From an uncultured Bacteroidales bacterium (GTDB lineage Bacteria > Bacteroidota > Bacteroidia > Bacteroidales > F082): a stretch of DNA of 64,000 nt. The stretch covers positions 1-64,000 of the forward strand of contig OMYA01000010.1 in NCBI GenBank assembly GCA_900315175.1, in the 5' to 3' direction. This document shows, piece after piece, positions 30,816 through 63,305 of the stretch. A program made the translations under genes and the position numbers. Each line of letters begins with the position of its first letter. Within the stretch, counting starts at the first letter, position 1. Under the pieces are notes generated by a model. The model was not told the origin of the DNA, searched no databases, and was given only the letters and a program-made list of their open reading frames with translations.

Positions 30816-30830
30816 TAGACACCTATTAAT

Positions 30831-30868
30831 AATAAGGAACGTCACCCTAAAAAGTGACGCTCCTTATT
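30831..30868 (+). terminator. Hairpin between the two giant adhesin genes
   Basis: Arms 30831-30845 and 30854-30868 pair over 15 positions with one mismatch and an 8-nt loop. Only a weak T-run follows, so it may be a partial terminator or an mRNA-stabilising stem. Confidence 0.6.
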
Positions 30869-30924
30869 GGAGTTAAAATGAAAAATTGAGAAATTAACAT
30901 AATTATTAACTAAATTTTTCTATT

Positions 30925-33900
30925 ATGAAAAAAGTTTTTCTATTATTAACGATGTTCTTGTTTGCCTTTGTAGGCACAATGAGAGCTGATGTAGTTGAGA
31001 TTGGCGATGGTACAGGTACAACCTACTATTTCCCAATCGATAATTACTTCAACTACTCCTGCACAGAGCAGGTTTATTTAGCTGAAGAGATTGGAGTTGC
31101 TGGAACAATCAATTCTATCAGTTTTTATTACAACTACGGTACGGCCTACACAGCCCCCAACGTGACGATGTACATGAAGCATGTGTCTCGTACTGGTTTT
31201 ACATCAACCACAGATTGCGAGCCACTCGAAGCAGGTGACGTCGTATGGACAGGTGCTATTGCTCCTACAGAAGCTGGATGGTACACATTCACCCTTGATA
31301 CTCCATTTGAGTACAATGGTACAGACAACCTGTTAGTTGCTTTCTTTGATGGTACTTCAGGCTATCCTGGAACAAGCTATACATGGCGTCAAACAGCCAC
31401 TTCTACCACCATGGGCTTGCGTTACTACAGCGACAGCTATGCCCCGGATCCATATAACCTTGCTTCTTACACTGGTAGCAAGCAAGTGTACAGTTACCGT
31501 TCAAATGTTCAATTAAACATCACGACTGGTGGTGGCGGAACATCAACATTCGCAACAGTTCCTGATGTTCTCGACCTCGGATATCGTCCGAACGGCGCTT
31601 GGATGGCTCCATACGTGTTCAACATGAAGAGCAACGTTGGCGCTGTCACAGTGAACGCATTGGATTTCAGCGGTAATTACTTCACATACAACGCTGAATT
31701 GCCAGCTACTGTTAGCGGAAACAAACCTCTCAAAGTTGCAGTGTCAACAGGCACAGCAGATGAAGGTGAGGTGAACAGCACAATCACTGTCCTCTATAGT
31801 GGCAACAACAGAGACGCTGAACAGCTTAATATCAAAGCTACAGCTTACAACCCGGTTGACGGCGACGTTTATGAGAATGCAGTTAATGTAACTTCATTCC
31901 CATACGCTGGCAATGCTCCTGCAGGTATCTACAAGAACTACGAGCTTCCTGAAGCTACAGAAGGTGCTGACGCTGTTTACAAATTGACCTTTGCTAACGA
32001 CGTGATGCTCACAGCCGGTACAACAGGTGCTGACGGTGTTGCAGCTCTCTACACAGAAGACTTCGCAGGTGAAGGCGGTCCTATGGCCGACAACAACTAC
32101 GTTTATAATGGCCCAGAGGTAGCTCCGGCTCCAGTTGCAAAATGGTTCTACTATGACAATGGCGAGTATTCTGGCAGCATGGGTGCAGGTGGCACACTTT
32201 ATTGGGGTATCAAAGTCCTGGCAAGTGAGCTTCCAGCCGCTGAAAACTGCGCTATTACAAAAGTTCAAATCTATGATGCTTCCTATACCGGTGGTACTTC
32301 TTACGTGCTTATTTATGAAGGTGGTGAATTGGTTTACTCACAACCATTCTCATTTATGGGTTCTGAAGATTGGCTGGTAATCGACTTAGATACTCCTGTC
32401 CTCATTGACAACACCAAAGATTTGATAATCGGTGCATATAACAGCGGTATTACTTATCCTGCTGCTGGATGTTCATATCAAGGTACCAATACTGATCTGA
32501 TTTCATTTGATGGAACCTCATGGACACCATTATCAAACTATGGTTATTACTACACATGGATGATTCGTGCTTGGGCTGAAACTCCTGATAGAGCTGGTGC
32601 CATGGAAATCACACATTTCGATGGTGAAACCTCAACAGGTAGTTTAGATCAGGTTGTTGCATCAACCCCAGTTGTTACCCGTCCAGTGGGTGGCAACAGC
32701 AACAGTCTCGCAAACAAGACAAATCATAACAACCGCTACGATCCAATATATCAGATTGCTGATATGTATGTTCCAGCAGGTACATACTACTTGGCTGTTG
32801 CTTCAACAGACGCTGAATTCCCTGTTTCTATCGCGACAGCAGAGGTCCCAGCTCCAGAACAAGCATTCGTTTTAGCACCAATGGATGGTGAGACCAATGT
32901 TGAGTATCCATATATCGCTGAGTGGATTCTTGGTGACTACACCGAAGAGATGCAGGTTTTGTTTGGTACACAGTATCCTCCACAAACAGCATTGATCGAC
33001 TGGACAACTGAACTCGTCGCTGGTGTTGTATTGCCAGAACTCGAGCCTAACCAGAGCTACTTCATGCAGGTCAATGAGCGTAACGCTGCAGGTACAACAA
33101 TGGGTGAAATCATTGCTTTCACAACACCTATCAATGCTGTTGATGAAGTGGTTGTCACTAACCCAGAACTTTACCCAGGCGATGCAGCAATGCTCACATG
33201 GACAGCCCCAGAACGTTCATTCAAGGGTTACAACATCTATCAGGATGGTGTGAAGATCAACGAATCACTCGTTACAACTACAGAATATGCAGTTGAAGAT
33301 CTTCCATACAACATGGATGGTTATTTATTCCAGGTTTCAGCAGTGTATGACGCTGGTGAATCACTTTTGTCAGCACCTGATACAGCTTATATGACAGGCT
33401 TTGGTTCAGTCAATGGCTATGTCTATGACACAGACACATTACATCCAATTGCAAATGCTACAATGGTTGTAGTAGGTATTGATGAATACGGTGCAATTCA
33501 GCAGTATGAGTTCTTAACAGACGAGACTGGTTTCTATGAAGGCGAAGTCCTCGCTGGTCTCTATGCTGTCGGTATTCTCACAGAAGGTTATGAGACTGCA
33601 GCAACTGTGATCTATGTTGCATACGATCAGTTGACAGAAGTTGAAGACATCATCACACACGAATTCTACTATCCTCTCGGTCAGATCACAGCAACAGAAG
33701 AAGAATCTGATGTTTTGGTTGAGTGGTCATGGGATCCTGCAGCGATGATTGTTGACTTTGAGACAGGCGACTTCTCACAGGCAGAATTCACATTGCCAGC
33801 ACAGTATCCATGGGCTATCACAACAACAAACCCATACGAAGGCACATACTGCATGAAGTCAACTTGCGAAGGTGTTGCAAGCGGTGTTTCTTCAATTGAG

Positions 33901-36900
33901 GCAACAGTTGACGTTCCGTTTGAAGAGGCAAAGATGGGCTTCTATGTAAGAGTTTCTTCAGAAACTAGCTACGACAAGTTCCACTTCTACATTGACGGTG
34001 TAGAAAAAGGTTCAGCTCTTAGCGGTGAATTGCCGTATGCTTACAAAGAGTTCTCAGTAACAGGTGGTACACACACTTACAAGTGGGAATATGCTAAGGA
34101 CGGTTCATTGAATGCTAACGATGACTGCATCTATGTTGATAACATCACAATGTTCAGAAAGGTTGAACCAACTCCTCCTCCAGCGCCAGGCGATGTGACA
34201 GTTATCCTCACAGCTCCAGATGTATGGGGTGACGGTTCAGGTTACCAGATGTTGCTCGATGAGACACACTCACTCTATGGCACAATAATTCCTGAGACAG
34301 GTGCATTGAGCATGAACTGCTCAGGCAATGAAGGCATCTACGATCAGTTCAGCCACAAGATCCCTACAAATGCCGATGGCAACTGCGCAACACAGAACAT
34401 GGTTAACAACGCAAGCGTTACAATTACAATCCCATCTGGTATCTATGATTGGTGCATCACCAACCCAACACCAGGCGATCGTATCTGGATTGCAGCATCT
34501 AACGGTAATGTTGGTGGTCGTCAGGACGATTACGTGTTCGAAGCAGGTAACACATATGAATTTGTATTGTCAACATATGGCAACAACGATGGCGTTGACG
34601 TAACAATCACTGGTGGTGCTAAGAACACAGCTAATGCATCAGAAAGTGACAATGCTTATGCAAACATTGATTGCAAAGTTGCAGATCCAGCCATGTTAGC
34701 TAATAGAGTTGAAGCTCCTATTAAGAAGATTGACATGAGATCAGAATTGAACAGCCGTTCAATTGACCTGAATGGTGGCAATCGTGAATTCGTAAGCTAC
34801 AATCTCTATCGTCGTAACAACATCGACGAAGAATCAGTTGAGAATCCAACACTCCTCGCTCAAGGTATCGCAGGTGATGTTTATGAATATCTTGATACAG
34901 AATGGCCAGCATTACCATATGGTGAATGGCAGTGGGGTATCGCAGCCACATACGATGGCTACGCTCCAGTTCCAAACCGTGAAACAGCTACATTCGGCTT
35001 CGAAGGTGGCAGCTTAGATGGTTGGACATGTATTAAAGTCAACGCAGACGGTGGCGAGTGGCTGAATAGCGACGACAACCCTGGTGGTTATGACTACACA
35101 GATGCGGCACATACTGGTACAGGCTTTGCAGTGTGCTACTCATTTATTGACTATGACGGCGCATACGATACAGATGCATATCTCGTATCACCTCAGAAGT
35201 ACAGCATTGATGCAAACTCATCAATTGCATTCTGGGCAGACAATGGTAACGACCAATATCCAGAGAATTTCTCAGTTTGCGTTTCTACAGCAGCTAACCC
35301 AACAGCAGCAGACTTCACACAGATTTGGAGTGGTGGTGCTAAGGGTACTGGCAGCAATGGCGCAACGGTACGTCGTGCAGAAAACCGTTATCAGAACTGG
35401 CGTTCACACGAGATCAGCTTGGCAGATTATGCAGGTCAGGAGATCTGGATTGCATTCCACGATGTCAACTATGATGCATACGAAATCTGGATTGACGATG
35501 TTACAATTACTCATGCAGGTTCAGCACCAGTTCCTCCAACACCAGGTCCAACAGGCGACGGTATCTCAGAAATCCTTTGGTCAAATGTTATTGACAAGGA
35601 TATGATTGCAACATTGACAGTTAATGTTGCTTTGAACAACGGTCAGTCACCAGCTGGTGCTGTTATTGAGCTCGAAGCAGCTGACAGAGAGTATGTGTTC
35701 ACAATTGATGAGACTGGTACAATTACAGAGGAAATCCGCAAGGGTGAATACCTTGTTGAGATTGAGCTTGATGGTTACACAGATATCATCGATCTTTTGG
35801 TTGCTGACGAAGACGAAATTTCATTAACATACGTCCTCCAAGAGGTTATTACTCCAGTTGATGGTTTGTATGTATCACCTACAGGTTGGGCAATGTGGGA
35901 AGGCGGATCAGTTGGTCCAACTCCAGGTCCTACAGGTGATGATTCATTCGAAGAAAGCTTCGAAGGTGGTTTGAATGGTTGGAATGTTCTCACAGTCAAC
36001 ACAGACGGTGGTGAATGGTTACACAGCAGCCAGAACCTCGGTGGTCATGACTACACAGGACTTGCACACACAGGTACAGGCTTCGCAATGTGCTACTCAT
36101 TCGTTGACTATGTTGGTGCATTCAACACAGACAGCTACATGTATACTCCTCAGAAGTATGACATCGTTAACGGTTCAACATTGACATTCTTTGCAGATAA
36201 CGCTAACGACACTTATCCAGAGAACTTCTCAGTGGTCATTGCAACAGTTGATAACCCAACAGCAGCCGACTTCACACAGATTTGGAACGGTGGTGCTAAG
36301 GGTACAGGCAGCGACGGTGCAATCGTACGTCACAACGACACACGTTATGAAAACTGGCGTCAGCACACAATCGACTTGAGTGCATACGCAGGTCAGTCAG
36401 TTTACATCGGATTCCACGATGTCAACTACGACATGTATGAAATCTGGATTGACGACGTTACATTGTCAACAGGTGCAAAAGGTGATCGTGCTCCATTGAG
36501 CTACAAGCTTATGCTTGACGGTGAATACGTTGGTGAGACATATTACCCATTTGCACAGTTGCCAGTTGAAGGCATGACAGAAGGTTCACAGCACGTTGCT
36601 GCAGTTGCTCCTCTCTATGCATCAGGTATGGGTGAGTGGTCAGAATACACATTCACATACAATCCATGCGACAACTTTGATGGTACGACATCATTCAACA
36701 CATCAGTCAATAATGCTGACGTAACACTTACATGGACATTGCCTGATGGTCCAACACCTCCAACACCAGGTGAAGGTCAGTGGTACTACTATGACAACGG
36801 TACTAACGAAGACGCTATCGGTACAGGTGGTGGTAACTTCTACTGGGGAGTTATGTTCCCAGCCGGTTCATACGAAGGCAACGCTGTTACAAAGGTGTCA

Positions 36901-38523
36901 ACATACGACTACATGGCTATGACAGGTAATGTTACTATCTACAACGATGGTACAACAGCTCCTGCAACAGCAGTTGGTACAGCTGACGTCACATTGACAG
37001 GTTCAGAAGAATTTGTTGAGGTTGAGTTTGCGACACCAGTGACAATTGATCCTTCAAAGAATCTCTGGATTATTTACTACAATGGCAGCGGTGCTTCATA
37101 TCCAGCTGCAGTCTGCGCCGACACAGGTGATCCTAACGGTCGTTGGGTGTCAATGGATGGTATAGATTGGATGGACCTTGCAACAGCAGGTTTGTACAAC
37201 ACATTCATGGTTCGCGCTTACGTTGCAACAGCCAATAAGGGTGAAGTTGTTGAGATTTCAGCTCCTCAGGGTAATGGTAGCAACGGTACATTAGCTAAGG
37301 CAGGTGTTGCTAAGGCTAACAGAGGCAACCGCGCTGCATGGGATCTCGTAACATCATTTACAGGTTCAAGTGCAGGTCAGCAGGCTGTTGCAACAGATGG
37401 CAACTACATCTACACAGCAAGCTGGCAGTCAGCACCATCTGGTGGTTACACATTCTACCAGTACAATTTGGATGGTACATTTGTTGAAGGCTTCGACATT
37501 GCAGGTGCAACAGGTATCCGTGACCTCACAACAGACGGTCAGTACTTCTATGGTTCATCAGGCGGAGCACAGATCTTCTGCATGGACTTCACAACACGTA
37601 CATTGGTCAGCACAATCAACTGTTCAGGTTTGACATCACGTCACTTGACATACGATCCAGTACGCGATGGTTTCTGGGCAGGTAACTGGACAACATTGGC
37701 TCTGTACAGCCGTACAGGTGCTTTGATCCAGAACGGTCCAGCTCCAACAAGTGCATACGGTTCATCATACTATGTGGATGCTGACGGTGTTGAACACCTC
37801 TATCTGTTCTGCCAGATTTCTCCAGACGGATCAGGTGAGACAACAAATAGAGTTGAGGTGATTGACTACAACATCACAACCAACACATTGGTTTCAGATC
37901 CAGTACATGTCTGCAATGACATGCCTGGTTATGACGCAGAGGATGGTATTGCTGGAGGTTGCTTCATCGGTACATACAACAACAAGACTTGCTTCTTCGC
38001 TAATGTTCAGCTGTCACCTAATATTGTAGCTATCTATGATCTCGAAGCAGGTCCAGTTCCTCCAACACCTCCAACAGAGGGTATCCTTGGTGTCATTCTC
38101 TATCGTAACGATGAGTTTGTCGGCATATTCGATGCTAACACAACAACATTCGTAGATGAAGGATTAGAGTCAGGTCACTATAACTACACCATCAGAGTTA
38201 TCTACGGCGGTGAATATGACGTTACATACTATGCAATGTCATGCGGTGACGAGGCTGAAGCTATTATTAACATTGGTGTTACAGAGAACGATGAGGTTAT
38301 CAACTCAATCTATCCTAACCCAACAAGCGGTGATCTCTACATCAATGCTACAGCAATGAAGCACGTGACAGTGTTCAACGCTATGGGTCAGATGGTTCTT
38401 GATCAAGAAGTCAGCGGCGACAGCATGGTCCTCAACATGGGTCAGCTCGAGTCAGGTGTCTACATGGTCAAGGTTACAACCGAGACAGGCAGCAACGTTA
38501 AGAGAATCAACGTTGTCAAATAA
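30925..38523 (+). CDS. Giant T9SS-secreted adhesin with gingipain/HagA-type domains (second)
   Basis: 2532 residues, paralogue of the preceding protein. Signal peptide (about 1-21). N-terminal QVYLAEEIG module at 21-200. A beta-sandwich (YYDNGEYSGSMGAGGTLYWG ... RAWAE) at about 405-552. Fibronectin III-like region at 648-735 and carboxypeptidase-regulatory-like fold at 830-915. A choice-of-anchor domain at 935-1080. DUF2436 at 1088-1232. Two cleaved-adhesin domains at 1352-1532 and 1672-1852. A second sandwich at 1952-2102. A propeller-like stretch at 2138-2377. T9SS type A signal at 2460-2532 (SIYPNPTSGDLYIN ... VKRINVVK). No protease domain is visible. Threonine codons are nearly all ACA except in the N-terminal module and the 405-552 insert. 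It probably mediates attachment, or haem or host-protein binding, by analogy with HagA. Confidence 0.88.
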   Translation: MKKVFLLLTMFLFAFVGTMRADVVEIGDGTGTTYYFPIDNYFNYSCTEQVYLAEEIGVAGTINSISFYYNYGTAYTAPNVTMYMKHVSRTGFTSTTDCEPLEAGDVVWTGAIAPTEAGWYTFTLDTPFEYNGTDNLLVAFFDGTSGYPGTSYTWRQTATSTTMGLRYYSDSYAPDPYNLASYTGSKQVYSYRSNVQLNITTGGGGTSTFATVPDVLDLGYRPNGAWMAPYVFNMKSNVGAVTVNALDFSGNYFTYNAELPATVSGNKPLKVAVSTGTADEGEVNSTITVLYSGNNRDAEQLNIKATAYNPVDGDVYENAVNVTSFPYAGNAPAGIYKNYELPEATEGADAVYKLTFANDVMLTAGTTGADGVAALYTEDFAGEGGPMADNNYVYNGPEVAPAPVAKWFYYDNGEYSGSMGAGGTLYWGIKVLASELPAAENCAITKVQIYDASYTGGTSYVLIYEGGELVYSQPFSFMGSEDWLVIDLDTPVLIDNTKDLIIGAYNSGITYPAAGCSYQGTNTDLISFDGTSWTPLSNYGYYYTWMIRAWAETPDRAGAMEITHFDGETSTGSLDQVVASTPVVTRPVGGNSNSLANKTNHNNRYDPIYQIADMYVPAGTYYLAVASTDAEFPVSIATAEVPAPEQAFVLAPMDGETNVEYPYIAEWILGDYTEEMQVLFGTQYPPQTALIDWTTELVAGVVLPELEPNQSYFMQVNERNAAGTTMGEIIAFTTPINAVDEVVVTNPELYPGDAAMLTWTAPERSFKGYNIYQDGVKINESLVTTTEYAVEDLPYNMDGYLFQVSAVYDAGESLLSAPDTAYMTGFGSVNGYVYDTDTLHPIANATMVVVGIDEYGAIQQYEFLTDETGFYEGEVLAGLYAVGILTEGYETAATVIYVAYDQLTEVEDIITHEFYYPLGQITATEEESDVLVEWSWDPAAMIVDFETGDFSQAEFTLPAQYPWAITTTNPYEGTYCMKSTCEGVASGVSSIEATVDVPFEEAKMGFYVRVSSETSYDKFHFYIDGVEKGSALSGELPYAYKEFSVTGGTHTYKWEYAKDGSLNANDDCIYVDNITMFRKVEPTPPPAPGDVTVILTAPDVWGDGSGYQMLLDETHSLYGTIIPETGALSMNCSGNEGIYDQFSHKIPTNADGNCATQNMVNNASVTITIPSGIYDWCITNPTPGDRIWIAASNGNVGGRQDDYVFEAGNTYEFVLSTYGNNDGVDVTITGGAKNTANASESDNAYANIDCKVADPAMLANRVEAPIKKIDMRSELNSRSIDLNGGNREFVSYNLYRRNNIDEESVENPTLLAQGIAGDVYEYLDTEWPALPYGEWQWGIAATYDGYAPVPNRETATFGFEGGSLDGWTCIKVNADGGEWLNSDDNPGGYDYTDAAHTGTGFAVCYSFIDYDGAYDTDAYLVSPQKYSIDANSSIAFWADNGNDQYPENFSVCVSTAANPTAADFTQIWSGGAKGTGSNGATVRRAENRYQNWRSHEISLADYAGQEIWIAFHDVNYDAYEIWIDDVTITHAGSAPVPPTPGPTGDGISEILWSNVIDKDMIATLTVNVALNNGQSPAGAVIELEAADREYVFTIDETGTITEEIRKGEYLVEIELDGYTDIIDLLVADEDEISLTYVLQEVITPVDGLYVSPTGWAMWEGGSVGPTPGPTGDDSFEESFEGGLNGWNVLTVNTDGGEWLHSSQNLGGHDYTGLAHTGTGFAMCYSFVDYVGAFNTDSYMYTPQKYDIVNGSTLTFFADNANDTYPENFSVVIATVDNPTAADFTQIWNGGAKGTGSDGAIVRHNDTRYENWRQHTIDLSAYAGQSVYIGFHDVNYDMYEIWIDDVTLSTGAKGDRAPLSYKLMLDGEYVGETYYPFAQLPVEGMTEGSQHVAAVAPLYASGMGEWSEYTFTYNPCDNFDGTTSFNTSVNNADVTLTWTLPDGPTPPTPGEGQWYYYDNGTNEDAIGTGGGNFYWGVMFPAGSYEGNAVTKVSTYDYMAMTGNVTIYNDGTTAPATAVGTADVTLTGSEEFVEVEFATPVTIDPSKNLWIIYYNGSGASYPAAVCADTGDPNGRWVSMDGIDWMDLATAGLYNTFMVRAYVATANKGEVVEISAPQGNGSNGTLAKAGVAKANRGNRAAWDLVTSFTGSSAGQQAVATDGNYIYTASWQSAPSGGYTFYQYNLDGTFVEGFDIAGATGIRDLTTDGQYFYGSSGGAQIFCMDFTTRTLVSTINCSGLTSRHLTYDPVRDGFWAGNWTTLALYSRTGALIQNGPAPTSAYGSSYYVDADGVEHLYLFCQISPDGSGETTNRVEVIDYNITTNTLVSDPVHVCNDMPGYDAEDGIAGGCFIGTYNNKTCFFANVQLSPNIVAIYDLEAGPVPPTPPTEGILGVILYRNDEFVGIFDANTTTFVDEGLESGHYNYTIRVIYGGEYDVTYYAMSCGDEAEAIINIGVTENDEVINSIYPNPTSGDLYINATAMKHVTVFNAMGQMVLDQEVSGDSMVLNMGQLESGVYMVKVTTETGSNVKRINVVK

Positions 38524-52173: not shown

Positions 52174-53298
52174 CTATTTAGATTCTACCGTTTCAAGTTC
52201 TTCATAATAAACCTGTGGGATTTCATCTTTATAGTCTTTGCTATAGAAATCAGCAGGTTTTAATAATTTCCCGAAGACGAAATCCTGGATAAGCACAAAC
52301 TCGTTGCCTTCGCTGAGGAGCGCATATTTGTGGTCAGGGTCGTTGATCATATCGTGGAAATTGTCGATATCTTCAGTGCTATAATCATAGATGTCGGCAT
52401 TGGTGCGCATGCGGAATGTGGTGACGCTGCGGCTGATGCCGTCTTTCGTTGTGAGTGTCAGTCTTTGCTGGAAAGGCGAGTTGATGATGGAGTCGCGGCG
52501 TGCAGGCTCAATGTCATAGAGGAATGCCTCGAAGCGCACGTCGCTGAATGATGTGAGCAGGTTAAGCACTTTATTGTCGCTGAAATCGACAGGCTCGCCA
52601 TTGAGACGGTTCATGGAGTATTGATAACGTTCGATTTCCTTGATAATGAATCCGTTATTGGGGTCGTCGTTGATTTCGAGTTTCACAGATTCGATGTCGT
52701 TGAGTCTTGAATTGAAGATGATATGGCTGCGCCAGTCGGTAGGGTTTGCCGAAAACCTTGAGCTGATGGAGCCATTGAGCATTGGCAGATGTGCGACGTA
52801 GACTTTGTCGCCGCCTTCTTTGAGGACGTATGTGCCAATGTTGTCTTGTGTGACGCCGCCCACGTAAAACACCTTGCTACGTTTCTCGTGATAGAACAGT
52901 TTCACCTTGTTGAACAAGTTGATGCGCGGGAGCATCTGATAGACCTCGACCTTGGTGTTTGTCGTCGCCATCTGTGAGATGGTGTTGTCGGTTTTCCTCA
53001 TCGACACTGGCATTTTGATTCTCATACGAGTGAGGGTGTAGAGCATCTCATTGACGAGGCTTTGGTTGGCGCGATACTCGTTGTTGACAGTCCATGCCAT
53101 TCCGTCGCGTTGCAAAACGACCTGGTTGCCGCTTTTGTCAGCGAAAAAGAGTTTTGTGACAGAGGCGGTGTCGTAGACGGTGAAATCGGCTGCCTCGCCA
53201 CGCAATGAGCTCAAATAGCGGTTGTTGCCGATGAGAATGCCGGCGATGACTACTAAAATAGCGACAATGACTATCAAGATGACGTTTTTTCTTTTCAT
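52174..53298 (-). CDS. DUF4340 domain protein, gld-cluster associated
   Basis: 374 residues. One N-terminal membrane helix (about residues 5-25, VILIVIVAILVVIAGILIG), then a beta-rich periplasmic region with the DUF4340 pattern (SVTKLFFADKSGNQVVLQRD ... AWTVNNEYRANQSLVNEMLYTLTRMRIKMPV). DUF4340 proteins are commonly encoded next to ABC-type gliding-auxiliary genes, as here with gldF and gldG. It probably works with that membrane complex. Biochemical role unknown. Confidence 0.85.
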   Translation of the reverse strand: MKRKNVILIVIVAILVVIAGILIGNNRYLSSLRGEAADFTVYDTASVTKLFFADKSGNQVVLQRDGMAWTVNNEYRANQSLVNEMLYTLTRMRIKMPVSMRKTDNTISQMATTNTKVEVYQMLPRINLFNKVKLFYHEKRSKVFYVGGVTQDNIGTYVLKEGGDKVYVAHLPMLNGSISSRFSANPTDWRSHIIFNSRLNDIESVKLEINDDPNNGFIIKEIERYQYSMNRLNGEPVDFSDNKVLNLLTSFSDVRFEAFLYDIEPARRDSIINSPFQQRLTLTTKDGISRSVTTFRMRTNADIYDYSTEDIDNFHDMINDPDHKYALLSEGNEFVLIQDFVFGKLLKPADFYSKDYKDEIPQVYYEELETVESK

Positions 53299-53313
53299 AT
53301 TTGCTAATTTCTA

Positions 53314-53424
53314 TTGTCATTTCGACCGACCGAAGGGAGTGGAGAAATCTCTGCCAATCAGATATTTCGAATCATTTATTGCAGGAGATTTCTCCGCTTC
53401 GTTTCACTTCGGCTGAAATGACGG
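53314..53424. repeat. Inverted pair of type A REP-like repeats inside the gld unit
   Basis: TGTCATTTCGACCGACCGAA at the left is mirrored by TTCGGCTGAAATGACGG at the right end, giving a long possible hairpin between gldG and the DUF4340 gene. It may lower expression of the latter. Confidence 0.8.
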
Positions 53425-53429
53425 TTTGT

Positions 53430-55193
53430 TTATTTATTATATTTCTTTTTTCGTAAAACTGCTAAAACGATTCCCATTACTATCATGATGACGCTTGGCA
53501 GGACCACGTTGATGATTTGCCACAGCATCGGGTTGCCGTTGACCTTGTTCATGTCGAGGAGTCGGATTTTCAGTTCACGTGAGCGGATATTGATAATTCC
53601 TTCTCCTTCAAGTAGATATGTTATGGCATTCTCGATAAACTGTTTGTTGCCGTATGTGATATTTGTGTATTGGTCATAGCCTAATGGCAGTGGTGAACCC
53701 ACACGTTTGTTGTTTTTCTTTGCATAGTCGAGCTGAGCGAGTTGGTTGCGGATGATATCGCCGTCGGCGATGACGATCATCGAGGTAGGGACGCTTTCCT
53801 CTTTAAACCCGATTTCTTTGGCTTCCGTGATTGACGCTGGCATGCGGTTTTCGAACAGCGAGGTGAATCTTCCGTTAAGGAGATAAGCCGCTGTCATGCC
53901 TTTTTGCGGGAACATGCTTGCATTCGGGCGTTCGTTCAGGATTTCCAGAGAGATATAGACTGGTGCGCTTGAAGCTTTGGTGTAGTCTGATGTCTTCAGA
54001 AGAGGTATTTTTTGAATCTCGGGAGCGGATGTTGTCGTTTCCAAAGAGCTTACAAAATCAGCTTTCACTGCCTCGAGGTTTCTCACGATAGGATGTTCAG
54101 ATGCTTGTCCGAGCAATGGGAAATAATACCAAGGCAGAAGCGTGCTCTGCAGGTTGTTGCCTTGTCCGGTGACCAGTCCGATTTGTGCGCAAGGGTATGC
54201 GAGGAGCAGGTTTTTGTTGAGTTTGATGCCGTATTTGAACAGCTGGTCGTCGAGGTTGAGATTCATGGCGAGCCCCATCGTCGACTCGGCGTTTTGCAGG
54301 CTGTCCATAGAAGCATTGACTGCATCGATGAGCCACATCACCTTGCCGCCATACATGATATACTGGTCGAGGATGAACTTGTCTTTTTCAGAGAACGGCT
54401 CGGTAGGTCTTGCCAAAATGATGGCGTCGTAAGCCGGCTTGATGACGATGTTACTGTCAGAATCCAAGTCTCTCTTCATCAATGAGTTAAGCTGTTCGTT
54501 GAGCGTGGCTCTTTTGATGATGTATTTCTTTGAAAGAGTGTTTGCGATGTCATATACTTCGAGGTCGGTCAGCTCGCCGTGACCGTCAACGAAGGCGATG
54601 GTGGGTTTCATCGTTGTTGAGATCTCTTTTATTGCGCTAATGAGCTTATATTCAAGGTCTTGCGCTGAGTTGTTGAGCACTGTCTCCTGGCTTTGTCCCG
54701 ATTGTCCGGAGAGGAGGTCGATGGCTTTCTCGTTTTCGCGGTAACTCATAATAATTCCGGGCCAAATCAAGATTTGTTGGATGCCAGTGTTGGTCTGCAC
54801 CGTTTCGGTGTAATAATTCAGGCCGTTTTGCCAAAGGATTTTATATGTCTCTTGACGTTCGGCTGCGTCGCTGCTTTCCGAAGGGTTAATAAATTCATAG
54901 TCAATGAATTTGGAATAGGCGCGGAACTCGTCGAGCATTTCTTTTGTCTCTTTGCGGAGTTTCTTGAAGCCTGCAGGGAACTCGCCTTCGAGGTAGACGC
55001 GGAAATAGACGTAGTCGTCGAGGTTTCTCAAGATGTCTTTTGAGGTGTCGGACAGGGTGTAGCGTTTTTCGGATGTGAGGTCGAGGCGGGTATAGACGAA
55101 AGAGCCTATGATATTTACTAACACTATGATTATCAATGTGATAATCAGTGATAGGATTTCGTTTCTCTTGATATTTTTTCTTTTGTTTTCCAT
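53430..55193 (-). CDS. gldG: Gliding-associated ABC-type transport protein GldG
   Basis: 587 residues from ATG 55193, which has AGGAGG a few bases upstream; an ATG at 55208 overlapping gldF is possible. N-terminal helix (about residues 12-36), a large extracytoplasmic domain of the ABC_transp_aux type (YTLSDTSKDILRNLDDYVYF, PTIAFVDGHGELTDLEVYDIANTLSK, KVMWLIDAVNASMDSLQ) and a C-terminal helix (about 563-583) followed by RKKK. GldG pairs with GldF. In flavobacteria, gldA/F/G mutants are defective in gliding. Confidence 0.9.
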   Translation of the reverse strand: MENKRKNIKRNEILSLIITLIIIVLVNIIGSFVYTRLDLTSEKRYTLSDTSKDILRNLDDYVYFRVYLEGEFPAGFKKLRKETKEMLDEFRAYSKFIDYEFINPSESSDAAERQETYKILWQNGLNYYTETVQTNTGIQQILIWPGIIMSYRENEKAIDLLSGQSGQSQETVLNNSAQDLEYKLISAIKEISTTMKPTIAFVDGHGELTDLEVYDIANTLSKKYIIKRATLNEQLNSLMKRDLDSDSNIVIKPAYDAIILARPTEPFSEKDKFILDQYIMYGGKVMWLIDAVNASMDSLQNAESTMGLAMNLNLDDQLFKYGIKLNKNLLLAYPCAQIGLVTGQGNNLQSTLLPWYYFPLLGQASEHPIVRNLEAVKADFVSSLETTTSAPEIQKIPLLKTSDYTKASSAPVYISLEILNERPNASMFPQKGMTAAYLLNGRFTSLFENRMPASITEAKEIGFKEESVPTSMIVIADGDIIRNQLAQLDYAKKNNKRVGSPLPLGYDQYTNITYGNKQFIENAITYLLEGEGIINIRSRELKIRLLDMNKVNGNPMLWQIINVVLPSVIMIVMGIVLAVLRKKKYNK

Positions 55194-55201
55194 ACGTCCT
55201 C

Positions 55202-55933
55202 CTACCATTTTCTGCTTGACAAAGTGAGTTTTGTCAGGCTTAAGAACAACACTATAACGCTAAGAAAATATATCAGGTCACGGGTGTCGATGACGCCGCG
55301 GCTCATTGAGCTGTAGTGCGTCGCCATGCCTAATTGTTGTATAAACAAGTCGATTTTCCCGAAGAGGGAGAGTGAGTAGATGAATTCAAATCCTATGTAC
55401 AGGAATCCGCAGAGGAACACTGAGAGGATGAACGCAAGTATCTGATTATTAGTCACAGAGCTGCAGAACACGCCTATTGAGACGAATGCGGCGCTGAGGA
55501 AAAACAGTCCGATGTAAGAGCCCCAGATGCCGCCATGGTCGACGTTGCCGACGGGCATTGCGAGGCGTGAGACGGAGATGTAATAGATGAGTGTGGGGAT
55601 AAGTGCGAGTAATACTAGGGCTACTCCGGCGAGGTATTTGGCGCCCACTATCTGCCAGTCGGAGAGAGGCTTGGTAAGCAGCATCTCGATGGTGCCGGTG
55701 CGGCGTTCTTCGGCGAAGAAACGCATGGTGACGGCGGGCACGAGGAAGAGGAACACCCATGGGGCGATGATGAAGAGGCTGTCGAGGCTTGCGTAGCCAT
55801 ACGACATGATGTTAAAATCGCTGTGGAACACCCACAGGAAGAGTCCGGTGATGAGGAGGAACACCACCACCACCATTATCCCGATGAGGGAGCTTAGGAA
55901 GTTGTTTATCTCTTTCTTAAAAAGCGCGTACAT
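55202..55933 (-). CDS. gldF: Gliding-associated ABC transporter permease GldF
   Basis: 243 residues. ABC-2-type permease with six helices. Typical start MYALFKKEINNFLSSLIGIMV, then LVPAVTMRFFAEERRTGTIEMLLTKPLSDWQIVGAKYLA, the coupling-loop signature of the family, and GVIDTRDLIYFLSVIVLFL. It acts with GldG, whose gene follows at once. The ATPase partner GldA is not in the window and must be elsewhere if the complex is functional. apt lies 15 bp upstream in the same direction. Confidence 0.92.
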   Translation of the reverse strand: MYALFKKEINNFLSSLIGIMVVVVFLLITGLFLWVFHSDFNIMSYGYASLDSLFIIAPWVFLFLVPAVTMRFFAEERRTGTIEMLLTKPLSDWQIVGAKYLAGVALVLLALIPTLIYYISVSRLAMPVGNVDHGGIWGSYIGLFFLSAAFVSIGVFCSSVTNNQILAFILSVFLCGFLYIGFEFIYSLSLFGKIDLFIQQLGMATHYSSMSRGVIDTRDLIYFLSVIVLFLSLTKLTLSSRKW

Positions 55934-56571: not shown

Positions 56572-57291
56572 ATGGGTAAAAAACAGCTGTTTTTTTTGCT
56601 GATATGTTTGTTTCCGATGATGGCTCTGAATGCTCAGAAAGCTGGAAGACACGAGATTTCCGCTGATGTGACTGCGCAGGGGCTCGTTGGGTATAACAAC
56701 ACCTACAGATGGTATGAAGGCGTTGATTTGAAAGGTGTTCTGCATGTCGACAACAACGATTTTTACCTTAATTTGGAGGCACTTACGCCGAATGTGTATT
56801 CGGTGGGTTTGAGTGTGAGGCCCAATATCGAGTTGTGTCGCAACGGCTTCGGGTATATCGACGTGTCGTTGCATTCGAGGTTTTTCGTAAGTTATAAAGT
56901 TTACGAATATGTTTATTCGGCGAGCATGGGCTTCAAGATGCGTCATTTCGACGTGCAGCTGGGTTTGTTCACGAAGGTTATCGACGGTTTCAACCGTGAC
57001 TGGGATGCGTTGGAGTTCACGCTCACGGAGGCGTTTAACTTTTTGTATAAGTTGAGAATCAGCGTTATGGGTTTCGACAACCCGTGGGATATCTATCTGA
57101 CAGGTGCCAATTTCAATGAGTTTGAATACGAGAGGATGTTGTCGCCGTTGTTCAGCCTCGGCGGGAGATGGGATTTTAAAGAACGGTGGAGTGCGGTGGC
57201 GGAAGGCACGCTGAAGCCGGCAGGGATGTTTCATGGGGCGGTGAAGTTCTATGAGGCGGTGCTGAGAATAGGGATAACTTATAGATTATGA
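56572..57291 (+). CDS. Predicted outer membrane beta-barrel protein
   Basis: 239 residues. Signal peptide ending in ALNAQ (about residue 21), then repeated amphipathic strands (HEISADVTAQGLVGYNNTY, FYLNLEALTPNVYSVGLSV, FGYIDVSLHSRFFVSYKVYE, MRHFDVQLGLFTKVID) and a C-terminal strand AVLRIGITYRL. I do not recognise a named family. It overlaps the next gene by 4 bp (ATGA), so its partner is probably the phosphoesterase lipoprotein. Confidence 0.7.
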   Translation: MGKKQLFFLLICLFPMMALNAQKAGRHEISADVTAQGLVGYNNTYRWYEGVDLKGVLHVDNNDFYLNLEALTPNVYSVGLSVRPNIELCRNGFGYIDVSLHSRFFVSYKVYEYVYSASMGFKMRHFDVQLGLFTKVIDGFNRDWDALEFTLTEAFNFLYKLRISVMGFDNPWDIYLTGANFNEFEYERMLSPLFSLGGRWDFKERWSAVAEGTLKPAGMFHGAVKFYEAVLRIGITYRL

Positions 57292-58187
57292 GAAAACGTA
57301 AAAATACAATGAGATTCCTCGCTGCGCTCGGAATGACAGCAGTATTCGGATTAGTAGTGGCGTTGACATCATGTTCAAAACGTGATTTGCTTGGTATTTT
57401 CGCGACATTTGACGAGTCGCCAAACGAGCGGTTTGCACAGTCGATGACGTATAACAACCAGCATGGCTACGACGTGATTACAGGGATGCCTAACACCTAT
57501 CTTGTGTATGCGATGAGCGACGTGCATGTGGACGGCTCGACACATAATCTTGACGAGTATGTGGCTGATTATCTGGCAGATACGACAGCGGCACCATTCA
57601 CGTTGTGTCTCGGCGATTTGATTAACGGAAAGAACGGTTTCGGCAAGTTTTGCGAGCATGTGAAGCCTGTTACCGACGCCGGGCGTAAGATTTATTACAC
57701 CGCGGGCAACCATGACCTGTATTTCGGACAATGGGACGAGTTTTATACGCGATTCGGCGCATCGACATATTGGTTTGAGGTTCAGACAGTTGGGGGCTTT
57801 AAAGATCTGTTTATCGCCCTTGAGTCGGGGAGCGGCACCTTGGGAGTGGATCAGAGAGATTGGCTTGAAAATCTGCTGGAAAGCAAACATAATCAAGGAT
57901 ATAGGAATATCATAGTGTTTACACACACACATTTCTTCAGGACGAACAACGTGAACGGGACAACCAGCAGTTTCAGCATGGAGGAGACCTACGATCTGGC
58001 GGATTTGTTTGACAGATATAATGTAAATGTTGTGTTGCAAGGGCATTCTCATCATAAAGACTGCAGGATATTTAAAGATGTGGGATATTTGAGATTAGGC
58101 GCGTTGAAAGAGGGTTCAGACGAAGCATGTTATGTGAAATTAAAAATAGGCAACTATATTGATTATCAATTTATTCCAATTTTTTAA
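57288..58187 (+). CDS. Metallophosphoesterase lipoprotein
   Basis: 299 residues. The signal sequence ends in the lipobox VALTSC (Cys29), so the mature protein is lipid-anchored. Calcineurin-type metal-binding motifs are intact: MSDVHVDG (D-x-H), CLGDLINGKN (GD), TAGNHDLYFG (GNHD), VFTHTHFF and LQGHSHH. The substrate (phosphoprotein, nucleotide or lipid) is unknown. Residues 8-18 (MRFLAALGMTA) are encoded by a type B REP-like repeat, here used as part of the signal peptide. It overlaps the outer membrane gene by 4 bp and precedes the EF-hand gene by 2 bp. Confidence 0.88.
   Translation: MRKRKNTMRFLAALGMTAVFGLVVALTSCSKRDLLGIFATFDESPNERFAQSMTYNNQHGYDVITGMPNTYLVYAMSDVHVDGSTHNLDEYVADYLADTTAAPFTLCLGDLINGKNGFGKFCEHVKPVTDAGRKIYYTAGNHDLYFGQWDEFYTRFGASTYWFEVQTVGGFKDLFIALESGSGTLGVDQRDWLENLLESKHNQGYRNIIVFTHTHFFRTNNVNGTTSSFSMEETYDLADLFDRYNVNVVLQGHSHHKDCRIFKDVGYLRLGALKEGSDEACYVKLKIGNYIDYQFIPIF
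57309..57341 (+). repeat. REP-like repeat, type B, inside a coding region
   Basis: ATGAGATTCCTCGCTGCGCT followed by CGGAATGACAG matches the intergenic copies at 50150 and 52018 but lies in frame in the lipoprotein signal peptide. Confidence 0.85.
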
Positions 58188-58189
58188 TT

Positions 58190-60385
58190 ATGAGATCAAA
58201 CGGCAATTACGATTGGAAATTCTCGACTGTAGGCGGTGTCACGAGGGTGAACATCGAGTCGGGACAGGACATCCTGCATTTGGATGAGCTTGACAGAAAA
58301 CTCTGGACGGCGTTGAGCTGCCCATTGAAAAACCTTGAGATTGACGAGAAGACCATGACGATGCTCGACACCAACGGTGACGGCAAGATCCACATCGAGG
58401 AGGTCGTGGCTGCTTCGAAATGGCTCACAAAGGTCATCAACGACCCGGAATTACTGTTGAAACGCGAAGCGTTTATCCCATTCACTGCATTTAACACTTC
58501 TAATGAAGAAGGCGCGCATCTGCTTGAGACTTCGAAGCAAATCCTTGAGAATCTTGGACTTGAGAAAAACGAGATTTCGGTAGCCGACGTCTCCGACAGC
58601 ATCGCAATTTTTGCCAAGACACGTTTCAACGGCGACGGCATCATCACCGAGAACTCGGCTGACGACGAGGCTGTGAAGGCGCTCATCAAGACCGTTATCG
58701 ACTGCATGGGCGGTGTCACCGACAGAAGCGGCGACCCGGGCATCGACACCGACAAGATAGAGGCGTTCTACACCGCTTTGGCAGACTTCAAGACATGGAA
58801 AGAAGCCGGCGACGCTGATAAAGCCAACGTGTTCCCATACGGCGATGACACAGCGGCGGCATTGGCAGCTTGCATGGCAGTGAAAGACAAGGTCGACGAC
58901 TTCTTTATGCGCTGCAAACTCGCTTCGTTTAACACCGACAGCGTGGCAGTGCTGGACGTCTCATCAGCGAAGATAGGAGAAATAAGCGGCAACAACCTGG
59001 CTGCAAGCACCGATGAGATTGCCACATATCCGTTGGCAAGAGTCAACGCGGAGCATAAGCTGCCATTGGGCAACGAGGTGAATCCGGCATGGGCAGGCGC
59101 CATGGCAACGTTGAAGGCTCTCGTCGTCGACAAAGAGTTTAAAAAGGCAGAATACCTCACCGAGGAACAGTGGGCTGGCATTATGGCCAAATTCAACGCC
59201 TACAACGCCTGGATGGGTGCCAAGGCAGGTGCCGCCGTCGAAGGCTTGGGCTACGACGCAGTGGTGAAGGCTCTTGAAGAAAACAAAAAAGAAGCGTTGC
59301 TCAACCTCGTGGCACAGGATAAGGCTCTGGAAGCCAAGTCGAACGCCATCGACCAGGTCGACAAACTGTTGCATCTCTATAGAGACTTCTACACATTGCT
59401 GACCAATTTCGTGACATTCAGCGACTTCTATTCACCTGAGAAGAGAGCCATCTTCCAGGCTGGAACGCTGTATATCGACGAACGTGCCTGCGACCTCTGC
59501 TTGAAAGTTAGTGACATGGGAGCACACAACACCATGGCGGCCTACAGCAACATGTACATCTTGTACTGCGACTGCACCTGCAAGAGCAAGCCGGGCACCA
59601 TGACCATCGCCGCTGTGGTGACTGACGGTGACGTCGGCGACATCATGGTTGGAAAACACGCCGTGTTCTACGACAGAGACGGTCTCGGCTGGAATGCCAC
59701 GGTGACCAAGATCATTGACAATCCTATCAGCATCCGTCAGGCATTCTGGTCGCCTTACCGCAAGATGGCTAAGTCGGTGGAAGACATGATCAACAAACGT
59801 GCCGCCGAGAAAGACGCCAAGGTGATGGCTGACGCCAACGCCAAGATTGACAACGCCAACCTTCCGGCTGACGGTTCGAAAGCTGCGGAAGCGCCGAAGC
59901 CGCCGTTCGACATTGCCAAATTCGCCGGTATCTTTGCCGCGATAGGCTTGGCAATAGGCTTGGTAGCTTCTGCTGTCGCCGGGTTGTTTGAATGGCTTGG
60001 AGCACATTGGTACAATATCGTGATATTCTTCTTGATAATCATTGCAATCATCTCAGGTCCGAGCATGATCATGGCATGGCTCAAGTTGAGAAAACGCAAT
60101 CTTGCGCCTGTGTTGAACGCCAACGGTTGGGCATTGAACCAGAGGATTTTGGTCAACACCAAGTTCGGTGCCACATTGACAGGCGTTGCCAAGTATCCGA
60201 TTGTTAAGACTAAAGACCCGTATACAATGAAGGCTCCATGGTGGAAGAAGATGTTGAGATGGCTGTTCTTGCTCATCTGCCTCTGTGTGGCGGTGTATTT
60301 CATCTTGCCGAAGGACATGAGGCCATTCAAGAGCTGCTGCCAGAAAGCTGAGGTGGAAGAGGTGGTTGAAGAGACAGCGGAGTAG
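58190..60385 (+). CDS. Unrecognised EF-hand protein with C-terminal membrane helices
   Basis: 731 residues, no signal peptide. Residues 60-71 form a canonical EF-hand loop, DTNGDGKIHIEE (Asp60, Asn62, Asp64, Glu71). Two weaker Ca-loop-like sites follow (FNGDGIITENSADDE about 146-160, DRSGDPGIDTDK about 180-191). The middle part is largely helical and rich in Ala, Lys and Asp. Three hydrophobic helices lie near the end (about 577-600, 605-628, 688-706), with basic loops and a Cys-Cys/acidic tail (SCCQKAEVEEVVEE). Topology is probably a large cytoplasmic domain anchored in the inner membrane. It starts 2 bp after the phosphoesterase gene. I know no named function; a calcium-responsive membrane protein is an inference. 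Confidence 0.75.
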   Translation: MRSNGNYDWKFSTVGGVTRVNIESGQDILHLDELDRKLWTALSCPLKNLEIDEKTMTMLDTNGDGKIHIEEVVAASKWLTKVINDPELLLKREAFIPFTAFNTSNEEGAHLLETSKQILENLGLEKNEISVADVSDSIAIFAKTRFNGDGIITENSADDEAVKALIKTVIDCMGGVTDRSGDPGIDTDKIEAFYTALADFKTWKEAGDADKANVFPYGDDTAAALAACMAVKDKVDDFFMRCKLASFNTDSVAVLDVSSAKIGEISGNNLAASTDEIATYPLARVNAEHKLPLGNEVNPAWAGAMATLKALVVDKEFKKAEYLTEEQWAGIMAKFNAYNAWMGAKAGAAVEGLGYDAVVKALEENKKEALLNLVAQDKALEAKSNAIDQVDKLLHLYRDFYTLLTNFVTFSDFYSPEKRAIFQAGTLYIDERACDLCLKVSDMGAHNTMAAYSNMYILYCDCTCKSKPGTMTIAAVVTDGDVGDIMVGKHAVFYDRDGLGWNATVTKIIDNPISIRQAFWSPYRKMAKSVEDMINKRAAEKDAKVMADANAKIDNANLPADGSKAAEAPKPPFDIAKFAGIFAAIGLAIGLVASAVAGLFEWLGAHWYNIVIFFLIIIAIISGPSMIMAWLKLRKRNLAPVLNANGWALNQRILVNTKFGATLTGVAKYPIVKTKDPYTMKAPWWKKMLRWLFLLICLCVAVYFILPKDMRPFKSCCQKAEVEEVVEETAE

Positions 60386-60417: not shown

Positions 60418-60433
60418 ATTTAAAGATTAAAAG

Positions 60434-60468
60434 AAAAATGCCGTGGGGGATGCTTGCGGCATTTTTTT
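60434..60468 (+). terminator. Terminator after the EF-hand gene
   Basis: AAAAATGCCG (60434-60443) pairs with CGGCATTTTT (60457-60466), with a 13-nt loop and continuing T-run. Confidence 0.85.
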
Positions 60469-60482
60469 ATTAAATATTTTCT

Positions 60483-60573: not shown

Positions 60574-60909
60574 ATGAAATCTGTTATTGGTAAAAATTTG
60601 AAATCTTTGCGTGTGGCTAACGGCTATAATCAGGAAAATGTGGCGGATTTTATTGGCATTAATCGCTCTACTTATTCGAATTATGAAAGTGGTGAACGTG
60701 AAGCTCCCTTGGATGTATTGGAAAAGGCTGCAACTTTGTTTGGTTGTGAATTAAGTTTATTGTTTGAAGAAGACGTAAATGCGGTAAAAAGCATGCTTGC
60801 ATGTGCATTTCGAGCCGATAATCTTGACGATGAAGACATGAAAGAGGTGGCTGATTTTAAAAATATTGTGATGAATTATTTGAAAATGGAAAAACTTCTT
60901 GCCAAATGA
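60574..60909 (+). CDS. XRE-family helix-turn-helix regulator
   Basis: 111 residues. Residues 1-60 are a Cro/C1-type helix-turn-helix: GKNLKSLRVANGYNQENVAD, FIGINRSTYSNYESGEREAP, LDVLEKAATLFGCELSLLFE. The remaining 45 residues are polar and partly acidic. It probably represses its own operon through the inverted repeat at 60483-60527. The stop codon overlaps the ATG of the ImmA gene, so the two proteins are made together. In comparable pairs (ImmR/ImmA) the protease cleaves the regulator to release repression. Confidence 0.92.
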   Translation: MKSVIGKNLKSLRVANGYNQENVADFIGINRSTYSNYESGEREAPLDVLEKAATLFGCELSLLFEEDVNAVKSMLACAFRADNLDDEDMKEVADFKNIVMNYLKMEKLLAK

Positions 60910-61643
60910 GAAAGATTGATTTTGAAACAGCTGAAAACCTTGCAACAAAGATGCGTAGTGAGTATTTGCGAATCTCAAATAGCGAGCCGATAAATATGAA
61001 GACAGCTCTTCGTCAGTTGAATATCCTGACGGTTTTCAAACCATTATCGGATAATGTTTGGGGATTGTCGTTGATGACACCTGACAGAGAGCACAGATTC
61101 ATGCTTGTCAACAGCAACATTACTCGTGGTGGACAACATTTTACAATAGCGCATGAGCTTTATCATCTTTATTTTGATGATAATCCAAAACCTCATTTTT
61201 ATGGTCAACTTGAACTTACTGATCCTGTAGAGCGCTCAGCAAATATGTTCGCTTCGGCTTTGATGATGCCAAAAGAAGGGTTGTTGATGAATATTTCTTT
61301 AGAGGAATTGAAGAAAAAAGAGATTGGAATAGATGCGGTAATCCGTTTGGAGCAGCTTTATGGAGTTTCGCACAAAACTATGGTTGTGCGATTAAAAGAA
61401 CTGCATTTTATAAACCATGAAATTGCCGATATTTTAATGAATCTCAGCATTACCAAAGAGGCTGCTTTGCGCGGTTTTGATGACAAATTATATAAGAAAG
61501 GTGATGGGGAGAGGTTGATTATCGGTGATTTCGGATCAAAAGCCAGAAAACTGTTTGAGGAGGAAAAAATCTCCGAAGGCCATTATATGGAACTTTTAAG
61601 TGTTATTGGGTATGGAAAAGGTGAAAATAGTTCTGGATGCTGA
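60906..61643 (+). CDS. ImmA/IrrE-family metallopeptidase
   Basis: 245 residues. The zinc site is HELYH (His83, Glu84, His87) in HFTIAHELYHLYFDD, with the third ligand Glu109 in DPVERSANMFASALMMP, the full signature of the family (formerly DUF955). The C-terminal 100 residues (from about 140) contain a helical segment. Proteins of this family cleave or inactivate XRE-type repressors in mobile elements and stress systems. It overlaps the regulator by 4 bp and the PIN-like gene by about 30 bp. Confidence 0.93.
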   Translation: MRKIDFETAENLATKMRSEYLRISNSEPINMKTALRQLNILTVFKPLSDNVWGLSLMTPDREHRFMLVNSNITRGGQHFTIAHELYHLYFDDNPKPHFYGQLELTDPVERSANMFASALMMPKEGLLMNISLEELKKKEIGIDAVIRLEQLYGVSHKTMVVRLKELHFINHEIADILMNLSITKEAALRGFDDKLYKKGDGERLIIGDFGSKARKLFEEEKISEGHYMELLSVIGYGKGENSSGC

Positions 61644-62121
61644 TGTTTTGATTCATTTTTCTAAAGCAGGTTGTTTGAACATACTACCTGCTATATTGCC
61701 TGAATACGAACATGTTGTACTTGATGTGGTTTATAAAGAAATTGTTTCTATTCAAAATCAATTGGATAATCAAATACATTTTTTTAAAAACATTTCGTTG
61801 GAAGAGTTTAATCCTTCAGGAGAAATGTTGCGTGAATATGCGGTTTTGTCAGCAACAAGAGGTAGGGGTGAAAGTGCTTGCATGTCATATTGCCGTTTCA
61901 CCAATAATGTGATTGGGAGTAGCAATATCAAAGATATTAAAGAGTATTGTAAGCTAAACAAAATCACATATTTGACCACGCTTGATTTCTTGTATTATGC
62001 TTTCAAACGTGGTAGAATGACAGAAGACAAATGTAAACAGTTTATTGAGGATGTTCAGATAAAAGGCAGTAAGCTACCGATGGTGGATATTACTAAATAT
62101 GTGCCTGAAAGTTTGATATAA
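61612..62121 (+). CDS. PIN-like domain protein (putative toxin or nuclease)
   Basis: 169 residues from ATG 61612, which lies inside the end of the protease gene; a GTG at 61600 is possible. VKIVLDADVLIHFSKAG at the N-terminus (Asp9, Asp11), a GRGESACMSYC segment like the GEAxA motif of PIN/DUF3368-type proteins, and TYLTTLDFLYYAFKRG with a further Asp supply the acidic residues of a PIN nuclease fold. PIN proteins are often RNase toxins. Here it is the third, translationally coupled gene after a regulator and a protease. Fold assignment is by eye. Confidence 0.7.
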   Translation: MEKVKIVLDADVLIHFSKAGCLNILPAILPEYEHVVLDVVYKEIVSIQNQLDNQIHFFKNISLEEFNPSGEMLREYAVLSATRGRGESACMSYCRFTNNVIGSSNIKDIKEYCKLNKITYLTTLDFLYYAFKRGRMTEDKCKQFIEDVQIKGSKLPMVDITKYVPESLI

Positions 62122-62138
62122 ACTCTCTTGATAATTAT

Positions 62139-63305
62139 TTATGACCTATTCCCCTTAGCCCTGTTATGTGTTTTGCAAAGCATCTGGCAATTCTCTTCAG
62201 ATGTGGTACCGCCTTTGCTCCATGCTTGAACATGGTCGGCATCCATATCTTTTTCATTCCATATCTTTGTGCGATGAGCTTCATGACCCATGGCGCAAAG
62301 TGGGCAGTTGCTGATACCTGCTGCACGAGCCTCGGCAGTCTGACGTTTGTAAACACGTCGTTTTGTCGCTTCATCGAATACTCTTACTTCCAACAATTTC
62401 GTGTCCTGCTCACCACCTAAAAGATACTCGAAAACTCCTTTTCGGTTCTTAATGAAAGGATCATCCATTAGTTTCTCGGCATTGGCGGTCATTTTCTGTT
62501 GATCATAAGTTTGCTCATGATATTCGTCATACAATTTGCCCCATTTCAAACCGCACATCTCATTGTATCGGTCGGCAAAGATGCTTTCTATCCATGAAAT
62601 TACATCGTTGAAGTGGCTTTGCAATTCATCGATTTGCGTCTCTTGACGGTGCGCTTGCATATATTCCTCAACTTCGCCATGACTTACCCAGTCAAGGGCT
62701 GTGTTTAGGAAATCTTGACGTTTCACAGAACCATGTACGTAAGCTCCCCATTTCTGAACGTTGGCGTTTCGGCTGTTGCTGAAGACAGAGCGAGCCTTGG
62801 TTACGAATGGACCGCTATAAACGGCGTTTAGTTCTTCCTGCAAGTTTAGCGGTATTCCAACAATATTGATGGTTTGAAACCATTGTTTTATCTCGCTTTC
62901 GGTGCCCTCACACTCATAGACAAGCAGTGTTGTTTTCTCTATAAGATTTTGTTTGTCTTTTGGCAAAGCATGAAATCGATAAGGCAGGTCACAGCTCATT
63001 ACAGAGAACTTGTCTTGCAGGAAACGTCCCAAGGATGTGATACGTTGTTGACCATCCAACACTTCCAATCTTCCGTCTGGAAGGCGGTTGAAATATAGAA
63101 GCCCCAGAGGATACTGCTTCAAAACGGAGTCGATGACGGCAACCTCTTTTTTGCCATTATCTTCGGCATAAAGATAGTTGCGCTGATACTCCGGCTGAAT
63201 TGTCAGTCTACCTGAGAGACCATACAGACCTTTTTCTTCCAGCTCATTATACTCAAAACCGTCACATAGCTCGGCGACGGTGTACTGTTTTAATTCAGTC
63301 TTCAT
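62139..63305 (-). CDS. DUF262 and HNH endonuclease domain protein
   Basis: 388 residues. The N-terminal DUF262 (GmrS-like) domain has [11 protein letters not shown] and [17 protein letters not shown], the nucleotide-binding and DGQQR motifs. Helical middle. C-terminal HNH nuclease with CPLC ... [20 protein letters not shown] and CKTHNRAKG (residues about 330-388). Related proteins cut modified or foreign DNA as type IV or phage-defence enzymes. It converges with the PIN gene, 17 bp between ends, and lies downstream of a methyltransferase and a small protein on the same strand. Confidence 0.9.

Follow-up and report, generated by a model that had tools for sequence, protein, structure and literature searches.

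An undescribed family of membrane-anchored proteins with one conserved EF-hand loop, predicted to face the cytoplasm, in Bacteroidales

An intact gene of a family without a name

Toward the end of a 64,000-nucleotide stretch of DNA from an uncultured Bacteroidales bacterium (contig OMYA01000010.1; hereafter the window) lies a gene for a 731-aa membrane protein with an EF-hand loop, which raises the question of what family this protein belongs to and whether it could sense cations inside the cell. The ORF is intact on the (+) strand from its ATG at 58190 to its stop at 60385, where a preliminary description had placed it, and it has full-length in-frame homologues. Pairwise dN/dS was ~0.1 against relatives at 83–93% identity, which indicates that the ORF is real and under purifying selection. 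In most comparisons the slowest-changing parts include residues 1–90, and the membrane part usually changes faster. An intrinsic terminator hairpin with a T-run (60427..60473 (+), −20.6 kcal/mol, z −5.67 versus shuffles) follows the gene. Its codon adaptation, 0.65 versus ~0.76 for ribosomal proteins, ruled out very high expression. Elsewhere in the window, two adjacent giant genes (24600–38523; 2071 and 2532 aa, with DUF2436, cleaved-adhesin/choice-of-anchor J domains and T9SS sorting tails) reach 0.82 and 0.78, at or above ribosomal proteins, suggesting that these two are very highly expressed.

We found no significant match to the EF-hand protein in NCBIfam, PHROG or PADLOC. As family assignment Pfam offered solely sub-threshold EF-hand matches, along with weak MFS_1 and holin matches, seen in some family members, that lie well below significance for such an assignment. 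No enzyme, transporter or defence family in Pfam, NCBIfam, PHROG or PADLOC was matched above its curated cut-off. Searching PDB sequences with the single sequence or a profile gave nothing below E 0.25, and Foldseek against the PDB gave no match below E 0.1 for either the whole AlphaFold model or its beta-domain. The top whole-model Foldseek matches (E 0.42 in the PDB, E 0.014 among viral structures) had TM below 0.1 and were judged noise. For the beta-domain, the top fold matches were hybrid or double Tudor domains (ARID4B, RBBP1, KDM4), with which it has in common that it is a small multi-stranded beta-domain; we rejected a Tudor identity (best E 0.12, TM ~0.2–0.3) and claim no homology. A literature search found no description of an EF-hand protein of such layout. 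The protein had been set apart from all recognised families, and this stood up to remote-homology and structure searches, which gave no confident match to an enzyme or transporter family; the large family to which it belongs carries no Pfam or NCBIfam name.

EF-hand loops, domains and membrane part

The ligand positions of loop 1 (DTNGDGKIHIEE, residues 60–71; 58367..58402 (+)) are retained throughout an alignment of 45 diverse homologues at ~53–93% identity: position 1 is D, position 3 is D or N, position 5 is D, position 6 is G, position 8 is I or V and position 12 is E or D, each in 45/45. The most distant homologue, from another class (L129), also retains the ligand positions in its loop 1 (DTDKNGRIRPGE). 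Loop 1 tops the EF-hand_1 matches of the 2.4-Mb genome (E 5.6e-4; runner-up 0.22), and the AlphaFold model folds it as helix-strand-helix (H53–59, E66–68, H69–82; pLDDT ~86–93). Its ligands at positions 1, 3, 5 and 12, its Gly 6 and Ile 8 and this predicted fold liken it to the EF-hand superfamily (PF00036, PF13499, PF13405), from which it differs in having a basic position 9, scores below cut-off and no second intact loop after it. Position 9 is H, R or K in 45/45 homologues, and because of this residue the PROSITE PS00018 pattern matches 0/45. PF00036 scored 18.4 bits against a gathering cut-off of 25.4, and when the 45 homologues were each scanned singly, PF13405 was matched in 38/45 and PF00036 in 30/45 at E ≤0.1, all weakly. 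The loop had been called a canonical calcium loop, which holds for the ligand positions but not for position 9, the PROSITE pattern or the sub-threshold Pfam score. Judged from this alignment, its conservation exceeds chance expectation, though it is below the formal Pfam cut-off. Metal binding by a single intact loop with so odd a position 9 may be weak, and bacteria usually have little free Ca2+ in their cytoplasm.

Two degenerate loops, also noted in the preliminary description, are present further along the protein. Loop 2 (RFNGDGIITENS, residues ~145–156; 58622..58657 (+)) has a non-ligand residue at position 1, with N147, G148, D149 and G150 invariant in the 45 sequences, and in loop 3 (DRSGDPGIDTDKIE, residues ~178–191; 58721..58762 (+)) D178, R179, G181 and G184 are invariant. 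Both are strongly conserved in most family members of the 45-sequence alignment. Residues ~145/150–203, which hold the two loops, are deleted in L038, L039 and L042, and L041 has lost several middle stretches, loops 2 and 3 among them, so the two loops are dispensable in some lineages. Despite these losses all four retain loop 1 together with the beta-domain and the membrane part, which look like the working core of the protein.

The AlphaFold model is of moderate confidence overall (mean pLDDT 76, pTM 0.58), being good to ~residue 250 and across the helical and beta parts, poor at 556–576, 659–680 and the tail, and dropping under pLDDT 50 in places within the linker and close to the membrane. 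It predicts that EF-like helix-loop-helix units lie in an N-terminal bundle reaching to ~residue 210, followed by a helical domain (residues ~211–410; 58820..59419 (+); pLDDT mostly 80–90, with a dip to 57–66 at 251–280) and a six-stranded beta-domain (residues ~421–510, modelled at 423–509; 59450..59719 (+)), which gave a poorer model when refolded alone (pLDDT 64.6). From there a long helix (residues 515–554; 59732..59851 (+), at low to moderate confidence) runs toward the membrane part. The earlier estimate of ~500 helical residues exceeds what the model shows, which is ~380 in all and ~300 ahead of the membrane part, and the beta-domain with its mostly conserved four-cysteine motif had been overlooked. 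This motif, CxxC (434, 437) ... CxC (460, 462), is a possible metal site (59489..59575 (+)); in 45 Bacteroidales members, C437 and C462 are each found in 45/45, C460 in 44/45 and C434 in 39/45. It is wholly or partly absent in four members of other classes (L125, L127, L128 and L129), and a metal site in the beta-domain is therefore likely in just part of the family.

Hydropathy and the model bear out three C-terminal membrane helices, at residues ~578–603 (59921..59998), ~607–634 (60008..60091) and ~684–705 (60239..60304), all on the (+) strand; hydropathy also shows no N-terminal hydrophobic segment or signal peptide, as had been reported. In the model a membrane hairpin spans residues 575–634, and the second helix (TM2) ends in a conserved SGP in which S622 and P624 are invariant. 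The loop between TM2 and TM3 (residues 635–683; 60092..60238 (+)) contains an NANGWA motif, ranks among the most conserved segments of the family and carries 9 K/R versus 1 D/E, so that by the positive-inside rule it would lie in the cytoplasm together with the N-terminal 570 residues. The description of a large cytoplasmic protein is thus consistent with its N-terminal part, but the protein as a whole appears membrane-anchored and not soluble. We consider this anatomy well supported: the family is undescribed and anchored in the membrane, and its one conserved EF-hand loop would face the cytoplasm, the fold and topology being predicted.

Spread, history and neighbourhood of the gene

Judged by its homologues, the protein is a member of a large, patchily spread family and not a one-off. 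Relatives are encoded by at least 544 loci of GTDB genomes, and the 80 closest of those listed come mostly from ruminant, deer and horse gut assemblies; this partly reflects the genomes in the collection and the restriction to the closest loci, and we claim no habitat signal. The EF-hand gene was found in 38/99 genomes of the window's genus and in 29/294 genomes of the order (22/177 sampled genera), and is rare in the rest of the phylum (6/395 in a phylum sample). It was present in 4/4 genomes of one family of another group and in 1/245 of the class of the most distant homologue. A broken family fragment, 40% identical and covering residues 338–481, lies on an Aeromonas salmonicida plasmid, and the family is therefore not confined to Bacteroidota. 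The reading frame of that fragment (L131, 1664–2710) continues into an unrelated hydrophobic stretch that bears its own annotation as a hypothetical protein, and the fragment adjoins tet(Y)/tetR(Y). As this broken piece is the sole plasmid relative, plasmids are not supported as the vehicle of the gene, and a viral origin was ruled out, with no relatives in IMG/VR or phage records.

In the tree, the window's genus falls in three separate places among other families. None of the bootstrap trees of a 28-row tree (0) held the genus together, and an AU test rejected a single genus clade (log-likelihood 254 lower, p 2.87e-43), indicating two or more separate origins for the gene within the genus. 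These multiple origins point to horizontal transfer as the simplest reading of the gene's history, the family having apparently passed among gut and related bacteria; ancient duplication followed by many losses is a possible alternative.

Two genes on the (+) strand lie directly upstream. One encodes a 239-aa secreted protein, probably an outer-membrane barrel (56572..57291 (+)), an ORF with an N-terminal signal-like sequence and no Pfam match, and the other a calcineurin-like phosphoesterase that is a probable lipoprotein (57288..58187 (+); PF00149 E 6.7e-13). The barrel gene overlaps the phosphoesterase gene by 4 bp, and a gap of 2 bp separates the latter from the EF-hand gene. The phosphoesterase is found beside the EF-hand gene in 25/27 clade-A genomes of the genus, and every genome with this closer phosphoesterase has the EF-hand gene too (25/25); a diverged phosphoesterase occurs in 50 genomes, with the EF-hand gene in 0/50. 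The barrel-phosphoesterase pair stands without the EF-hand gene at five other loci inspected, and the EF-hand gene without the pair in 11 genomes of the genus and in all other families inspected. Codon adaptation is 0.65 for the EF-hand gene versus 0.50 and 0.46 for the pair. We treat the pair (56572–58187), which recurs at other loci of the genus at only ~21–26% and 31% identity, as separable from the EF-hand gene and possibly a module of its own.

Across the families inspected, the EF-hand gene has no conserved partner gene. A conserved operon across families was rejected: neighbours such as VTC/DUF4956-like or NDH-2-like genes, named by eye, occur in one lineage each. In two species of another Bacteroidota family (L137, L139), the gene comes after VTC-domain- and DUF4956-like genes, again judged by eye. 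Directly past the terminator in the window, an AT-richer stretch (60574–63305) encodes an XRE-type regulator, an M78 peptidase resembling ImmA/IrrE, a 173-aa protein that matched nothing in Pfam or NCBIfam and, on the opposite strand, a GmrSD_N/HNH protein (PADLOC 'REase_II', E 9e-80); it resembles a small defence island or mobile island. Upstream, at 52174–55933 (−), DUF4340, DUF7088/ABC_transp_aux and ABC2-membrane proteins are encoded consecutively and resemble a gliding-type GldG/GldF ABC transporter set.

A putative cation sensor and its rivals

Our best explanation is that the protein belongs to a family, so far undescribed, whose members are anchored in the inner membrane, face the cytoplasm and act as sensors or adaptors for divalent cations, a proposal that seems to us about evenly poised between right and wrong. 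Loop 1, the single EF-hand loop with its basic position 9, would bind Ca2+ or possibly Mg2+, and binding would rearrange the N-terminal EF-hand bundle. The change would be relayed via the helical domain and then the beta-domain, in which the cysteines probably bind a structural metal, and would run along helix 515–554 to reach the membrane hairpin and the NANGWA loop, which is conserved; a membrane partner would presumably be regulated there. We infer metal binding, conformational relay and partner regulation from several features: the loop 1 ligands are universal, the loop is the best EF-hand_1 match in its genome and the Pfam EF-hand matches, though weak, agree; the protein has no signal peptide, a positive TM2–TM3 loop, a history of purifying selection and no match to a known catalytic family; and, where loops 2 and 3 are lost, loop 1 persists along with the beta-domain and membrane part.

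Ca2+ sensing that regulates a membrane partner would be the best-supported mechanism, and its main rival is a structural metal. The bound cation would then serve purely to stabilise the N-terminal bundle, making the protein a non-sensing membrane scaffold. Ligand conservation by itself cannot tell structural from sensing sites, only one loop is intact and loops 2 and 3 can be lost; the conserved loop and the long helix toward the membrane, however, fit a relay, without proving one, and we hold the scaffold to be possible if rather doubtful. Another reading starts from MgtE-type channels, in which an internal divalent-cation sensor domain is joined by a linking helix to a membrane part. The protein could likewise assemble into an oligomer that serves as a channel or transporter, with Ca2+ or Mg2+ gating it from inside and the SGP near the pore. 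Its soluble sensor part, its connecting helix and a conserved membrane segment in which S622 and P624 are invariant would suit such a role. The likeness lies only in the idea of such a layout, with a cation sensor in the cytoplasm and a helix linking it to the membrane part: there is no sequence or fold match to MgtE-type channels, the sensor domains differ and the membrane helices here are fewer. These three helices have few polar residues, no transporter family in Pfam or NCBIfam was matched at cut-off, no fold match was found and the MFS_1 and holin matches fall well short of significance, which makes a channel or transporter unlikely.

The tight co-directional spacing upstream (a 4-bp overlap, then a 2-bp gap), the 25/25 co-occurrence with the closer phosphoesterase and the terminator after the EF-hand gene would suit a protein that forms a three-part envelope system together with the barrel protein and the phosphoesterase. 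We consider this improbable, as the pair and the EF-hand gene each occur without the other, the 50 genomes with the diverged phosphoesterase all lack the EF-hand gene, and the codon adaptation of the three genes is unlike. It is highly improbable that loop 1 is a chance match that binds nothing: a Pfam score below gathering and an unmet PROSITE pattern would permit this, but the ligand positions are constant across the 45 homologues and in distant classes.

Among bacterial EF-hand proteins proposed to transduce Ca2+ are EfhP (PA4107, PMC9132961), Caulobacter CaBP (PMC13171946) and CasA/calsymin. These are small proteins that carry a signal peptide and are predicted to be periplasmic or secreted, whereas the protein here is 731 aa long, lacks a signal peptide, ends in a part with three membrane helices and has a sensor part that would be cytoplasmic. 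That the family is a large, horizontally mobile one of membrane-tethered intracellular Ca2+ sensors in Bacteroidota is a tentative idea, to which we give limited credence; if true, Bacteroidota would have a component for calcium signalling in the cytoplasm whose architecture differs from that of the small periplasmic EF-hand proteins known so far. The family has hundreds of members and looks to have been acquired repeatedly by different lineages; it is a good candidate for an internal calcium (or magnesium) sensor of bacteria, and would offer a concrete protein for testing whether cytoplasmic Ca2+ serves bacteria as a signal.
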